Shown: one piece after another, positions 6,315-61,757 of the stretch | Layout: each line of letters begins with the position of its first letter | Numbering within the stretch: position 1 is the first letter of the stretch | IMG/VR virus record: IMGVR_UViG_3300031741_000001 | Coordinates: 1-64,000 of that record | Direction: 5' to 3' (one strand) | Source of the DNA: a virus | DNA length: 64,000 nucleotides | Notes under the pieces: model-generated | The model's database searches: none | Told to the model about the DNA's origin: nothing | What the model saw: the letters and a program-made list of their open reading frames with translations, nothing else | Translations under genes and position numbers: made by a program

Positions 6315-6322
6315 AATACACC

Positions 6323-6360
6323 TCTAAATACATCCGATTAAAGGATGTATTTAGAGGTGA
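6323..6360 (-). terminator. intrinsic terminator on the minus strand
   Basis: CACCTCTAAATACATCC and its complement form a 17-bp stem with a short loop. The A-rich tract on its left (6297-6320) reads as a T-run after the hairpin on the minus strand. It would end leftward transcription that has crossed RNA element A, and possibly rightward transcription as well. Confidence 0.65.
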
Positions 6361-6656
6361 CTTATAAAAATAAATATTATAATTTTATTAATATTATACA
6401 TATAATATCACTCCTTCAATTATAATTAACACTCGTGGGTTTACACGATAAGATAAATGGTTTCGTCTATAGTAATGTCTGTTTTACTATTTAAGCAGTT
6501 GTATTCGAATTGAATTTTATACAGTTCTAACTGTTCTTATAGATAATTTTATACTAGCTAGAAGCCTAGTTTGATTCGATATCATAAATGTAATGGTGAA
6601 TCTGCATTACGTTTAGAGGGGTGATATTACTATCGGTATAGATCCTACTACTTTAC
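6361..6656. ncRNA. structured intergenic RNA element, copy A
   Basis: This 296-nt gap between convergent genes holds no convincing ORF. A 7-bp hairpin at 6469-6490 carries the 8-nt loop TGTCTGTT. An H-type pseudoknot follows: CTTATAG (6536-6542) pairs with CTAGAAG (6558-6564) with one mismatch, and ACTAG (6553-6557) pairs with CTAGT (6566-6570). An extra hairpin, ACAGT/ACTGT, lies at 6521-6534. The same two modules occur at 16436-16513 and 59646-59720. The transcribed strand is not settled. Confidence 0.55.
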
Positions 6657-6881: not shown

Positions 6882-7104
6882 AGTACTCCCTTTTCTATTA
6901 TTCTTGTTTATTTTTTCTTGTTTTAATCTTTCGCGATACTCGACGTGTTCACGCGAGTATGCTTCATGCTCTTTAGCACGCTCGTCGCGCTTCAGCTCAT
7001 CGTGAGCGAGCTCTTTTTCGTACTCTTGTTTATCCTCACCCCTTTTAATTATTACTTAAATCTTTATTGATTCGCAATAATAATGTATATCTAAGAAACG
7101 AATG

Positions 7105-9613: not shown

Positions 9614-9708
9614 TGTTTCTCCAAATTTTAAGTTTTATACCTATATGATATAGTGGGTTTTGGTTTTTTTAAACTATTCTATATAAGGTAACAAACGAAA
9701 GGTATTTT
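9614..9708. promoter_or_regulatory. divergent promoter region, late-type motif for head genes
   Basis: AAACTATTCTATATAAG at 9671-9687 (plus strand) lies 22 nt before the scaffold candidate. On the minus strand, CACTATATCATATAGG at 9640-9655 could serve the helicase gene. The plus-strand copy matches the structural-gene motif almost exactly. Confidence 0.5.
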
Positions 9709-11166
9709 ATGGATTCTATAATACAAACAGCTATGTTAGTGAATACAAGTACCAACCTTAAAAAAGGTTGGTCTGAACCTAACGTCAATCAAGAATATAT
9801 GAGACTAGATCCTTTAGGTAGAGCTACTCATCTATTAAGACAAAGTTTTTTAATTAAATACTGTTCCATAATTTATGGAAAGTACCTACCTCCACTAATA
9901 GAGAATTATAAAAAAGCTTTAGCTAACACTATTCAAATTGAAATAAGAAACTGTAGAAGTAAAGACATTAAAGTTAAATTTGGATTGCAGACCGCTTCTA
10001 CCTTCATCCGGTTAGAAGATTTTATTAAATTTAATAGTAAGAATATACTCTCATATTTTGATGATAATTCCCCAGCTAATATGAAAAGTAATATTCCCAA
10101 TATCGGCGAATCGCCATTTATTGAAATGTGTCTTAACTTTTGGAACAACAATCTCGCTCTATCTCAAAGAAAATTTGAAGATATCGAAACTCCTCTTATC
10201 TCAGGAGTTAAAATTCCTAAAATAGACATAACTAAAAATTGCATTTTACTTAATACTGAAGATACGAACTATCATTTTATTGGGTATGTTTACTCTCCAG
10301 AATTAATCAATACGATATACATGAATTCTCCTATTGATAATAATGATACTCTATGTTCTTTATCTGCTTCTTTGGATTGGAATGGTAAGTCGTTTTCTAA
10401 TCTTTTAGGATTCTTTGCTAGGAATGTTTTGACTATGGATGTTTTCTCTCCATTGAAAATAAACACTACTCAAAAAAATAAATTAATCCAATATAGAAAC
10501 CTAATCAACGCCAGCTGTTTCTATGTTCTCTTTAACGATATGTATAAGTCTCTTATTAATCCTACTATCTTTATTAAAAGAAATGATCCTAAGATAATGG
10601 ATGGATTCTTAAAGACAATAGAACTTTTAAAAACTACTTATAATTTAGAAATGGATGATTTAGGGGCTCTTAATAAATTAGCTTCCGCATCTAGCGAGTT
10701 TGGCGATTTCCTTTTTAATAAAGATAATAATAATCATGTTAAATCTGCTGACGGTGGAACTTACCCAACTATCCTCGATGGGTTAGAAGGATTAGAATCT
10801 GAAGACGAGACTGGTTCCATAGAGGAACCTGCAGACGATATGGAAGAAGATGCTCCTGAACCGGTAGTTGAAGCAGATCCAGTAGCTCCTAAAGAGGCTA
10901 CTTCTTTTAGAAGTAAACTTAAAAATGATAAATCTAAAAAGATTAAAATAGAATTAGAAAAAGAAGTTACGTTAGACGTTATTCTCCTTAGAGATGAATT
11001 TTATGAATTCATCACTCAGATTCTAAAGAATCCTGAAGATAAGGTAGACTCTTTAGAATTAAGAGCTCTCAAGAAAATCAGAGATTACTGGTTAAATGTT
11101 CTAAGCATTAAAACTATCTACGATATCATTTCTAGTGTTGTCTCGTGCCCTATTGTTATAAAGTAA
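9709..11166 (+). CDS. candidate scaffold or prohead core protein
   Basis: 485-residue protein encoded directly upstream of the MCP and preceded by a late-type promoter motif. Residues 1-340 are mixed, helical-rich. A low-complexity Glu/Asp/Pro/Ala linker (about 365-400) follows, then a basic Lys stretch and a helical C-terminus. An acidic flexible linker plus position before the MCP fits a scaffold or core protein that is removed or degraded during head maturation. LESEDE-type sites could be protease targets. No sequence family is recognised, so this rests on context. Confidence 0.5.
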   Translation: MDSIIQTAMLVNTSTNLKKGWSEPNVNQEYMRLDPLGRATHLLRQSFLIKYCSIIYGKYLPPLIENYKKALANTIQIEIRNCRSKDIKVKFGLQTASTFIRLEDFIKFNSKNILSYFDDNSPANMKSNIPNIGESPFIEMCLNFWNNNLALSQRKFEDIETPLISGVKIPKIDITKNCILLNTEDTNYHFIGYVYSPELINTIYMNSPIDNNDTLCSLSASLDWNGKSFSNLLGFFARNVLTMDVFSPLKINTTQKNKLIQYRNLINASCFYVLFNDMYKSLINPTIFIKRNDPKIMDGFLKTIELLKTTYNLEMDDLGALNKLASASSEFGDFLFNKDNNNHVKSADGGTYPTILDGLEGLESEDETGSIEEPADDMEEDAPEPVVEADPVAPKEATSFRSKLKNDKSKKIKIELEKEVTLDVILLRDEFYEFITQILKNPEDKVDSLELRALKKIRDYWLNVLSIKTIYDIISSVVSCPIVIK

Positions 11167-16307: not shown

Positions 16308-16347
16308 CCCCAATCATTATCGACTACTGCGATAATGATTGGGGATA
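16308..16347 (-). terminator. terminator on the minus strand
   Basis: TCCCCAATCATTATCG pairs with its complement over 16 bp around a 7-nt loop. The A-run at 16288-16298 becomes a T-run after the hairpin on the minus strand. It would end leftward transcription from the 16609-16836 gene through RNA element B. Confidence 0.7.
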
Positions 16348-16608
16348 ATCCTATGGATCATATTTGATTCAATCCTTTTTGTGAAGAATTGACTAATTTA
16401 TTAAGTATGAGATAGCGGTATCGAGGTATCTTCTAACAAGTGGCTGTGCTTGTATTATAGAAAGGAATAGAGGTTCGGTTCATTAGGAGCTTTATACTAG
16501 CTAACGATCTAGTAATTTTCAATTAATAATATAAATCAATCAATTCTATATTATTCACTTTATTCATATTGCCAGTAAATCATCCTTGCGGAAGGGCAGT
16601 GTAGCTAT
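16348..16608. ncRNA. structured intergenic RNA element, copy B
   Basis: This gap lies between convergent genes and has no ORF. At 16436-16453 a 5-bp hairpin ACAAG/CTTGT carries the loop TGGCTGTG. After 27 nt a pseudoknot forms: CATTAG (16481-16486) with CTAACG (16501-16506), and ACTAG (16496-16500) with CTAGT (16509-16513). The 9-nt linker GAGCTTTAT differs from copy C (AAGCTTTAT) by one base. A second weak stem-loop lies around 16370-16392. The strand is unresolved. Confidence 0.6.
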
Positions 16609-16836
16609 CTAGGCTAGAGTAGTAGCTCTAACTAGGGTAACCATAGCATATACGAATTCAGCGAGTTCAATTACGGCTAAGACCCCAATAGCGATCAGTA
16701 ACATTGGAGTAAGCGTTGGACATAAGCAAACTATAGTTACGATCCCAACCGCAGGTCCTACTGAAATAACAGTTTGTACTACTGCTTTAGTTATCTTTTT
16801 TACTACATTCCATATTGTTGTTAGTGTGTTTTTCAT
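16609..16836 (-). CDS. small two-span membrane protein, holin-like in size
   Basis: 75 residues with a short basic amphipathic N-terminus and two hydrophobic helices (about 18-40 and 45-70) separated by a Pro-containing turn. Size and topology would fit a holin or other small membrane effector, but no lysis enzyme is adjacent and no family is recognised. The start ATG follows AAGGAATAATATC. It is bracketed by its own terminators, so it appears to be a single-gene unit. Confidence 0.6.
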   Translation of the reverse strand: MKNTLTTIWNVVKKITKAVVQTVISVGPAVGIVTIVCLCPTLTPMLLIAIGVLAVIELAEFVYAMVTLVRATTLA

Positions 16837-28294: not shown

Positions 28295-28385
28295 TTTGTT
28301 TCTCCTCAATGTAGTTATGTTATTTTAAACCTTCTTCTAATAATATAATATATTTCTATTTTTCGTTTGAGAAAAAAAAAGAAAA

Positions 28386-28411
28386 ACAGCTCTTCCGTAC
28401 GGAAGAGCTGT
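28386..28411 (-). terminator. strong terminator of the head operon on the minus strand
   Basis: ACAGCTCTTCC pairs with GGAAGAGCTGT around GTAC. The A-run at 28371-28385 gives a T-run directly after the stem on the minus strand. It ends leftward transcription coming from 30803 or beyond. Confidence 0.9.
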
Positions 28412-28623
28412 AGATAGATCTGACATAAGAACAGGGTAACTCTTATATGAAATAACTTAAACTGATAAGTATCCCAACTTTCCTATTTTGCGAATATAGT
28501 TTCACACCTAGTATATGTTGCACATTGTTATCCACGTTAATATGAAATAACACGTTTCTACTTTTTATGTATATAGTAAAAACGCTACGTGATGGTGGTC
28601 AGTCCAGACCTAAAATTTAAAGG
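28412..28623. other. 212-nt intergenic stretch with direct repeats, no ORF
   Basis: It lies between the small acidic gene and the terminator, so it is a long 3' leader or a separate RNA. It contains two copies of ATATGAAATAAC (28445-28456 and 28540-28551), a small GGTC/GACC hairpin (28597-28610), and a single TTATCCACG one base away from a DnaA box. No ORF of note was found on either strand. Confidence 0.5.
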
Positions 28624-28743
28624 TTAATCATCGTCATACATCATATCATCGTCGTCACAATCCATATCTCTACGCATCATTTCATCATTATCATCATCCA
28701 TATCTTCTTTACTATTTCTGTTATTTACACCTAAAATATTCAT
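28624..28743 (-). CDS. 39-residue acidic protein with MNIL start
   Basis: ATG 28743 overlaps the TGA of the preceding gene (ATGA). The product is MNILGVNNRNSKED followed by a run dominated by Asp and Met, and it ends in three Asp. The first four residues and the DNA TTAAAATATTCAT-type start are shared with the inner-head-like genes at 36246-45335. A DNA-mimic, metal-binding or head-interior peptide are possibilities. Low complexity makes coding less certain, but overlap and start support it. Confidence 0.55.
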   Translation of the reverse strand: MNILGVNNRNSKEDMDDDNDEMMRRDMDCDDDDMMYDDD

Positions 28744-59389: not shown

Positions 59390-59729
59390 TAACTTCAGAT
59401 AGCGTTTAAATGGCATTTAAGACACCATCAAGCGTAATTGTTATGAATGACTCATAATCATTACCATGAAGACATATCTTCAATGAGGTGTGCCAAAACG
59501 ATTAGTTGAATATTAAAAATATCGGATGCTTAAAGTTTCCATTTAAAGTCAGGCGAACTATAAGCGAGGTTTATGCTTTTAATGCATTTTAGAATACTAT
59601 CTATAGGCATCTGAAAAGATGCCTATAGATAGTTTGAGGTATTCCAGTAAGTGGCTGTTCTTACTATAGTGGTTGTCTGGTTGTTTGCATAGGAAGCTTT
59701 ATACTAGCCTATGCTCTAGTCTTTAATTA
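59390..59729. ncRNA. large structured intergenic RNA element, copy C
   Basis: 340 nt between convergent genes, no ORF. The 3' part carries the conserved module: hairpin 59646-59665 (AGTAAG/CTTACT, loop TGGCTGTT) and an H-type pseudoknot. In the pseudoknot, GCATAGG 59687-59693 pairs with CCTATGC 59708-59714, and ACTAG 59703-59707 pairs with CTAGT 59716-59720. The 5' part adds a 17-bp stem closed by GAAA (59596-59633), a 12-bp hairpin (59434-59464), a 6-bp hairpin (59467-59482), and possible long-range pairings ACACC/GGTGT (59422/59487) and TTTAAATGG/CCATTTAAA (59405/59539). Confidence 0.65.
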
Positions 59730-61757
59730 TTAAGTAAGCAACACGTGTCCGTTAGACGCTAATGCTGCGAATTGTTTTTTAATGATATTAGTATCCCTTG
59801 TTGTATAGAGGTTTAGTTTAAAACCATTATTAACGTCTTTACTATCTCTTATAGTAAATAATTTATTATTAGCTTTTTCTAGATCTATAAATTTACCAGC
59901 TTCACTTAGAAGCCTAGTGAAAACTTCAGAGACCTCGTCCGGTTTAGTACTTCCTAGATCGCCTTCAGGTACGTCAATATTTGTTAGATATATTCTATTT
60001 GCTTTTACCGTGAATACAGTAAACGTTACTGCCAATGCTTCTATAGCATCACGTGCTTCTTTATTGTTATTATTAGTAGTATTACTTTCAACTATATAGC
60101 TCCAGTAATCTCCAACTCTAAATTGTCCATTTGGAGTATATTTATTACGTAGTGCTTCTATGATAATTTTCCTATCTCTCATATTCTCGAAGTCTAAAAT
60201 AGTAGAATGGTCAGTAATGAATGTTTCCACTCCAATAGAAACTATATTCCGAGTCATCTTAGTATAGTCTGCATTGTTTTTAAATCTAGCGAGTTTAGGC
60301 GCGTCGCATAAGAATAATTCTTTAATGGCACTTATCTCAGTGATACCGATAAAACCATCTTCAGTATCTAACTCACCAAAAAGACCAGAACCTAGAATAT
60401 AAGAATTAACACTAGATACAAGCATCTCTTCAAATATAGCTGCTGTCTTTTTCTTCTCACCATCTAGAATAGCTTCTAGAACATTACCCATCTCTTCCGG
60501 TTTGCAACCGATAAGATGTTTTTTAGTTTTATCTATCAAAGTTTTAAATTCCTCAACTGGAACTTTCTTAACCATGAGCTCTGGGAATTCTACTATCTCT
60601 AAGGATTTCTCAGTCGCTCTATTCTGATTATCAGAACAATCATCTAACTTCTCAACAATTTCTGACTCGAAAGACGGTCTCTTAATTTTAGAAACTTTAA
60701 TCTTAAAATCCGATAGGTCAGTTTTTACTTTTTTCTGAGATATTGATGTGTGGGCGTTTTCCCATTCCTCTAAAGGCTCAATCACCCAATTGAATATCTT
60801 GGGTATCGGTTCCGTATTAAATAAATTATCCATTTTTCCATCCCGATTTCTCGTTTCGCGTTCTGGGTATTCTGTAAAATCTCTAGAATTGCTTTTATTT
60901 TTAAAATTAGTGGCTTTTATTTCAGCCTGAGCTTTCCTAGTGGCTTCTACACTTCTAGCATTGCGGATATTCTGTTCTGCTACAGACACATAACCGTTAT
61001 CATTTCGTGTAGCACCGCAGTCATATTTAGAATGTCTTGGTTGCGGATCATCATCTTCTCTATAGGAACTTATAGTCCTAGGGGCTCTATCTATAGGTTG
61101 TTCTCTACGGAATCCGCCGCTACCATTGTCGAACCCTCTATCGTTGCCGAATCCTCTATCGTTACTATAACGGCTATCGCGACAACCATCACCACCGTTA
61201 CGGTTATAATAACTATTATTGCTATAACTATCATTTCTTTGACGATTATCAAAACTTCTAGGATCTTGATATCTGTTATCGTTATTATATCCACGATCTC
61301 TATTATTTTGATACCTATTATCGTTATTAAATCCGCGATCTCTAGGATCTTGATATCTATTATCGTTACTGTAACTACGATCTCTATTATCTTGATACCT
61401 ATTATCGTTACTGTAACTACGATCTCTAGGATCTTGATACCTATTATCGTTACTGTAACTACGATCTCTAGGATCTTGATATCTGTTATCGTTATTATAA
61501 CTACGATCTCTACCGCCCTGATCTTCTATCTGTTTAAAAAGATTCTGTAACCATACCTTTAACTCATCCTCTATCTGTGAGACAGTAGGAGAACCGTATC
61601 TAGATAACTGTCTCTCATAAAAGGCTCCAACTTCATTTTCTATAGTAGCTAGAATATTTCCGGCATCTATTGCTGTTAAATTATTACTTTTAACATTAGC
61701 AGCTAATAACGTATCCGCTTTCTGCACGATTTGTCTTGTTCCAAAATTATCTGACAT
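59730..61757 (-). CDS. protein with Arg/Tyr/Asn disordered repeats and a folded C-terminal domain
   Basis: 675 residues. Residues 1-80 are a helical domain. Residues 83-166 are six 14-residue repeats on RDRSYSNDNRYQDP. More Gly/Asn/Arg/Tyr-rich sequence follows to about residue 245, a composition known to promote phase separation or RNA binding. Residues 300-675 look folded and mixed alpha/beta, without a recognised motif. AAGGAGAAATATA precedes the ATG. It is transcribed after the RNA polymerase beta fragment, so a link to transcription or an intracellular phage compartment is possible but unproven. Confidence 0.7.
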   Translation of the reverse strand: MSDNFGTRQIVQKADTLLAANVKSNNLTAIDAGNILATIENEVGAFYERQLSRYGSPTVSQIEDELKVWLQNLFKQIEDQGGRDRSYNNDNRYQDPRDRSYSNDNRYQDPRDRSYSNDNRYQDNRDRSYSNDNRYQDPRDRGFNNDNRYQNNRDRGYNNDNRYQDPRSFDNRQRNDSYSNNSYYNRNGGDGCRDSRYSNDRGFGNDRGFDNGSGGFRREQPIDRAPRTISSYREDDDPQPRHSKYDCGATRNDNGYVSVAEQNIRNARSVEATRKAQAEIKATNFKNKSNSRDFTEYPERETRNRDGKMDNLFNTEPIPKIFNWVIEPLEEWENAHTSISQKKVKTDLSDFKIKVSKIKRPSFESEIVEKLDDCSDNQNRATEKSLEIVEFPELMVKKVPVEEFKTLIDKTKKHLIGCKPEEMGNVLEAILDGEKKKTAAIFEEMLVSSVNSYILGSGLFGELDTEDGFIGITEISAIKELFLCDAPKLARFKNNADYTKMTRNIVSIGVETFITDHSTILDFENMRDRKIIIEALRNKYTPNGQFRVGDYWSYIVESNTTNNNNKEARDAIEALAVTFTVFTVKANRIYLTNIDVPEGDLGSTKPDEVSEVFTRLLSEAGKFIDLEKANNKLFTIRDSKDVNNGFKLNLYTTRDTNIIKKQFAALASNGHVLLT
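61260..61511 (-). repeat. six tandem 42-nt repeats coding for 14-residue units
   Basis: The repeats RDR[SG][YF]xNDNRYQ[DN][PN] occupy codons 83-166. Two central units are nearly identical in DNA (around 61375-61460), so the array is young and may vary in copy number between relatives. Confidence 0.85.

Follow-up and report, generated by a model that had tools for sequence, protein, structure and literature searches.

A covarying H-type pseudoknot behind the stop codons of unrelated genes in a phiKZ-like virus

A repeated RNA element in convergent gene junctions

The convergent gene junctions of an 81.8 kb phiKZ-like virus contig contain a real and apparently undescribed RNA element, at the core of which lies an H-type pseudoknot, termed PK1, whose structure is well supported by covariation among its copies. 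The conserved pairing, the strand, the position, and the modular duplication of this element are established here. The pattern TTTATACTAGC-N4-8-CTAG has exactly three matches in the window (the first 64,000 nucleotides of the contig, IMG/VR record IMGVR_UViG_3300031741_000001), as against none in 100 shuffles, and a fourth match lies on the same strand at 74106–74127 of the same record. The record contains at least four copies (A, B, C, and D), all in the identical orientation. The original prediction had described three copies of an ordered module, all of which were found at or near the coordinates it gave (Table 1), and its count of three is extended to four by copy D at 74.1 kb, outside the window. 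Protein family matches in the source record include DNA polymerase, a DnaB-like helicase, the major head protein, sheath, terminase, and polymerase families, with about 25–30% identity to cultured phiKZ-like phages.

Table 1. Features of copies A, B, and C, with positions in the window
Copy	Feature	Positions	Strand	Sequence or description	Source
C	PK1	59687–59720	-	ACTAG-A-GCATAGG-CTAGT-ATAAAGCTT-CCTATGC	stem/covariation scan
C	Loop hairpin	59645–59666	-	TAGTAAG-AACAGCCA-CTTACTG	loop scan, folding
C	Long hairpin	59596–59633	-	17 bp; module end; no clear T-run on either strand	sequence, folding
B	M0	16563–16611	-	starts at TAG stop codon of 75-aa gene; also in D	3'-UTR comparison
B	PK1	16480–16514	-	(T)ACTAG-A-TCGTTAG-CTAGT(A)-...-CTAATGA	stem/covariation scan
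B	Loop hairpin	16436–16453	-	ACAAG-CACAGCCA-CTTGT	loop scan, 3'-UTR comparison
B	Terminator-type hairpin	16308–16344	-	CCCCAATCATTATCG...CGATAATGATTGGGG; T-run further on; falls under the tail criterion of the terminator scanner	sequence read directly
A	PK1	6536–6570	-	ACTAG-G-CTTCTAG-CTAGT-ATAAAATTAT-CTATAAG; one C-U mismatch	stem/covariation scan
A	PK2	6510–6536	-	GAACAGTTAGAACTGTATAAAATTCAA; identical in D; proposed hairpin or short pseudoknot	3'-UTR comparison
A	Loop hairpin	6469–6490	-	ATAGTAA-AACAGACA-TTACTAT	loop scan, folding
A	Terminator	6319–6359	-	17-bp hairpin and T-rich tail	terminator scan

Covariation, strand, and chance expectation

Read on the minus strand, PK1 displays the interleaved stems, and the loops long enough to cross the grooves, of an H-type pseudoknot: an S1 (ACTAG/CTAGT) that is constant in the four copies, a 1-nt L1, a 7-bp S2, no L2, and an A-rich L3 of 9–10 nt that begins with ATAAA. 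The sequence of S2 varies, being GCATAGG/CCTATGC in copy C, TCGTTAG/CTAATGA in B and CTTATAG/CTATGAG in D (each with one G-U), and CTTCTAG/CTATAAG in A (with one C-U mismatch). Over the four copies, 27 of the 28 S2 cells are paired, with double compensatory changes, and each of the S2 positions 1–6 shows more than one pair type. When the 3' strands of S2 are re-dealt among the copies, 12–22 cells remain paired, save for the exchange between the close paralogs A and D, which also gives 27. The variable stem had been predicted to stay paired in every copy, and this stands but for the single mismatch in copy A; its length, however, proves to be 7 bp throughout on the minus strand, and the stem formerly proposed for copy B (CATTAG/CTAACG) contains an A-C mismatch on the plus strand that is a G-U pair on the minus. 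Since the layout is conserved with compensatory changes, selection on RNA structure, as first proposed from three copies, holds over four. Pseudoknot-free folding, which cannot assess PK1, supports the loop hairpins and, in copy C, the long hairpin, but nothing else.

The two non-Watson–Crick pairs of S2 are G-U on the minus strand and A-C on the plus strand. In known H-type pseudoknots a 1-nt loop crosses the deep groove, which matches the minus reading. Given these G-U pairs, the loop geometry, and the location behind minus-strand stop codons, the RNA strand is most likely the minus, settling what the original prediction had left unsettled. The plus-strand reading was rejected because of its A-C pairs and because a 1–2-nt loop would have to span a 7-bp stem, which is sterically implausible. 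The wobble pairs bear equally on the idea that the repeats are a DNA-level signal (a replication origin, packaging, recombination, or polymerase site) that mimics an RNA fold: their repetition in the same orientation at convergent junctions would suit such a signal, but inverted repeats in DNA would not favor G-U on one strand, and the non-Watson–Crick pairs are all G-U on one strand bar one mismatch per set of sequences. We consider a DNA-level signal improbable, and the replication or packaging role first entertained is disfavored because the non-Watson–Crick pairs are G-U.

A whole-genome scan for any H-type pseudoknot placed copy C joint top and copies B and D high, amid many background matches. 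When L3 had to start with ATAAA but S1 and S2 could take any sequence, a scan of 3.48 Mb recovered only copies B, C, and D plus a single further match; the reversed sequence, scanned as a control, gave one. Against the background of this genome, seven of seven S2 pairs arise by chance at 0.7% per site. That figure, the near-identity of copies A and D over 65 nt, and the pair lost in A would all be compatible with functionless, duplicated 3'-UTR DNA whose covariation is partly due to chance; however, B, C, and D are each fully paired with a different sequence and the scan of 3.48 Mb recovered almost nothing else of such quality, and we rate this explanation as marginally less probable still than a DNA-level signal.

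Position and modular make-up of the 3' UTRs

Every copy occupies the 3' UTR of a minus-strand gene that faces a convergent plus-strand gene, the upstream genes being unrelated; PK1 of copy C begins 9 nt past the stop codon (59730–59732) of a gene for a 675-aa protein. With genes called by a simple greedy choice of ORFs and no trained gene finder, the four copy-bearing gaps (342, 325, 340, and 211 nt) exceed all other true convergent gaps of the record in length; a gap of 163 nt at 7006 hinges on a 53-aa ORF of doubtful standing. Where a convergent junction lacks the element, the gap measures 52, 102, or 67 nt and holds a terminator-type hairpin only. PK1 itself has no GC-rich hairpin with a T-run and so is no intrinsic terminator; hairpins of that type lie further downstream. 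Stop-codon readthrough was rejected, as the frames behind the stops close soon. Two genes upstream of copy D there is an HNH_3-like endonuclease fragment (below the cut-off; L004 2664–3020, about 75.3–75.6 kb of the record), the sole one in the record.

A four-way comparison of the 3' UTRs reveals mosaics of up to four modules in a constant order, namely M0 (B, D), PK1 (all), PK2 (A, D), and a loop hairpin (A, B, C), followed by a terminator or long hairpin. This single order of the mosaics suggests that 3'-UTR parts were duplicated and reassorted. M0 of B and D aligns from the stop codon with a score of 58 (null maximum 27), whereas PK2 is identical in A and D, leaving no covariation to read. 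The loop hairpin combines a near-constant xACAGmCA loop with changing stems, and a genome-wide search for this loop on stems of 5 bp or more recovered the hairpins of A, B, and C alone; the predicted 8-nt-loop hairpin is thus confirmed for these three copies with its changing stems, but is missing from copy D. The M0 module (CTTCCGCAAGGATGATTTAYTGG core; 16563–16611 in the window and 74138–74189 in the record) starts exactly at two unrelated stop codons, possibly forms a covarying 4-bp outer stem, and has a partial third match at 74011 of the record. The 17-bp hairpin of copy C (59596–59633) is perfect and may serve as an RNase III-type site or as a phage-polymerase terminator.

Relatives and known RNA families

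A covariance-model search of Rfam 15 gave no match at the gathering score and no plausible one below it, only lookalikes of terminator hairpins and, in contig L016 (see below), tRNAs; this agrees with the earlier statement that no named family has this pattern, and a ribozyme, riboswitch, or other named RNA was rejected on that ground. The missing Rfam match also counts against a decoy for a type III (ToxN/CptN-like) endoribonuclease toxin, in which the pseudoknot would mimic the antitoxin RNA. Type III antitoxin RNAs (CptI, ToxI) are, like PK1, H-type pseudoknots, and CptI resembles PK1 further in its 1-nt L1 and its long, A-rich loop (PMC5086642). However, such antitoxins are arrays in which one unit is repeated in tandem ahead of a toxin gene; neither the array nor the toxin gene was found here, PK1 being single at each site, and a decoy would leave the location behind stop codons unexplained. 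A search of the record for ToxN gave no match, its control being equally silent. Of the readings considered, this is the least probable.

A DNA polymerase alignment search provided about 80 phiKZ-like loci as a sample of relatives, the nearest of which (L185/G001, at 37% identity in that search) is syntenic around the helicase, head protein, and polymerase, and has a plain terminator only at the counterpart of junction A. Pattern and covariance-model searches did not find the element in this or the other of the about 80 loci, and the further copies that the original prediction had thought to seek in other jumbo phages are absent from this sample. On this sampling, the element is confined to one lineage. 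As the sampled relatives have no copies, its conservation is shown over paralogs in one phage only, besides an independent, analogous set in another phage group (see below), and as the nearest syntenic relative is without it, it is not essential in this group. Searching phage records with the element by blastn gave no or chance-level matches, and searches of IMG/VR with the 675-aa and sheath proteins recovered no relatives.

A putative role at the ends of phage messages

The explanation that we tentatively favor is that PK1 is a cis-acting structured RNA of the 3' UTR that shields the message from nucleases or controls its stability, with or without a bound protein; we infer the minus-strand transcription, the nuclease shielding, and the protein partner from the genome sequence. 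Past the stop codon, the minus-strand transcript would fold into a compact H-type pseudoknot (S1 ACUAG/CUAGU), in which the 1-nt L1 would cross the deep groove of the 7-bp S2 and the A-rich L3 (AUAAA...) would lie in the shallow groove of S1. Next along the transcript would come the xACAGmCA-loop hairpin (in A, B, and C) and then a terminator-type hairpin. Pseudoknot and hairpin may jointly block or slow nucleases at the transcript end, possibly with a phage protein bound, and this block would set the stability of the upstream message. Given that the stems vary while the loops are constant, we suggest that the shape and a few loop bases are recognized. Speaking for a role at the 3' end are the covarying PK1 at the ends of minus-strand genes, with G-U pairs on that strand only, the terminators that alone occupy the other convergent gaps, the constant module order that closes in a hairpin or terminator, and the independent set of knots behind stop codons in a second phage group (see below); speaking against it are the small number of copies (four, of which A and D are close), the nearest relative without the element, and the many genes, indeed most of this phage, that are without it.

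The constant loop sequence on changing stems would also suit a protein-binding operator, with a putative phage RNA- or ssDNA-binding protein on the pseudoknot and/or the xACAGmCA loop coordinating several messages, in the manner of gp32 at the T4 gene 32 pseudoknot but from the 3' end. The T2/T4 gene 32 pseudoknot has a very short L1 and an S2 of about 7 bp, sizes that PK1 resembles, and is likewise an H-type pseudoknot with coaxial stems in phage mRNA. However, it occurs once, in the 5' leader ahead of the start codon, whereas the four copies of PK1 follow stop codons and have an A-rich L3 (AUAAA). A gp32-type operator precedes the ribosome binding site of its target gene, but PK1 lies downstream of stops at convergent junctions, with no copy near any same-strand ribosome binding site; we therefore regard such an operator as possible though rather unlikely. 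PMC3014915 cites the NMR structure of the T2 gene 32 pseudoknot and describes the role of the gene 32 pseudoknot.

Alternatively, the pseudoknot-hairpin-terminator unit might be released as a 3'-UTR-derived small RNA that acts in trans, a reading in keeping with the discrete modules ending in terminator-type hairpins and with bacterial 3' UTRs being a frequent source of sRNAs (PMC9438474). We think it unlikely, given that the linkers are unconserved and that consensus scans, which do not cover phage promoters, detected no obvious promoter of its own. Sites complementary to the conserved loop lie away from all predicted gene starts, and a trans-acting seed in that loop was rejected on this account.

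With respect to the favored cis-acting role, phiKZ-like phages encode their own RNA polymerases, and how their messages finish, get protected, and are coordinated is poorly known. Covariation-supported structured 3'-UTR RNAs of large DNA phages seem scarcely described (none surfaced in our literature search), and the present case indicates that a single phage can make up its paralogous 3' UTRs from reusable RNA modules. Should the element set mRNA stability or bind a phage protein, it would offer a compact means of identifying that factor, and the 34-nt knot would serve as a portable part.

Similar arrangements in a second phage group

Pattern scans of IMG/VR produced, among at least 119 listed stretches, chance-like and mostly coding matches, except for L016 and nine contigs of another phage group (L033, L034, L054, L068, L095, L125, L126, L127, and L129) that carries terminase, DnaB, and RecE-like genes. 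These nine contigs carry two tandem H-type pseudoknots, which stand behind a stop codon in no fewer than five of them, the first being ACTAGC-TA-GGCAG-AGT-GCTAGT-ATAAAAAAATCTA-CTGCC and the second GAGAG-TT-GCTACT-CTTTC-GTGAATAATAAA-AGTAGC; in L054, L126, and L127 a terminator-like GC hairpin with a T-run follows directly. Over six distinct sequences, 99.2% of the cells are paired and five pairs are changed on both sides; none of 500 shuffles reached as high, slid controls fell far lower, and the non-Watson–Crick cells are all G-U on that strand bar one. The covariation nevertheless provides moderate support, as the six are close relatives of one another and no double change occurs in more than one of them.

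These knots share with PK1 the position behind stop codons, a CTAG-type S1, an L3 starting with ATAAA, the strand logic, and the covariation, but differ in having an L1 of 2 nt, an L2 of 3 nt, a 5-bp S2, and a second knot of other sequence. Since the scans were keyed on the S1/L3 core, the likeness there is no evidence of homology, whereas position and covariation were not searched for. A search of 84,980 genomes with the second-group core gave only unrelated matches. It is conceivable, if doubtful, that unrelated DNA phage groups share an undescribed type of message end (stop codon, one or two H-type pseudoknots, terminator) as exchangeable modules and a common device for stability or control of the 3' end during infection. 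H-type pseudoknots are also stacked behind the last stop codon in plant RNA viruses (the tobamovirus upstream pseudoknot domain); that domain, however, belongs to RNA viruses of eukaryotes, whereas PK1 is found in a DNA phage behind several genes, with terminators after it.

A further match of the covariance model in L016 (E 0.003) was rejected, as it lies in the start of a coding region with two S2 mismatches, and the covariance-model R1 E-values are therefore optimistic. The knot at 9690–9723 of the minus strand of that contig (ACTAG-T-GCTGG-CTAGT-ATAAAA-CCAGC) has a perfect S1 and S2, is immediately followed by a long hairpin, and stands downstream of three tRNA genes; with a shuffle p of about 0.004 that arose among some 20 candidates, it is suggestive only of a possible third case of the same design. 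In the window, 28310–28630 is a long noncoding gap between same-strand genes that ends in a strong terminator hairpin with a T-run and possibly encodes a separate noncoding RNA.
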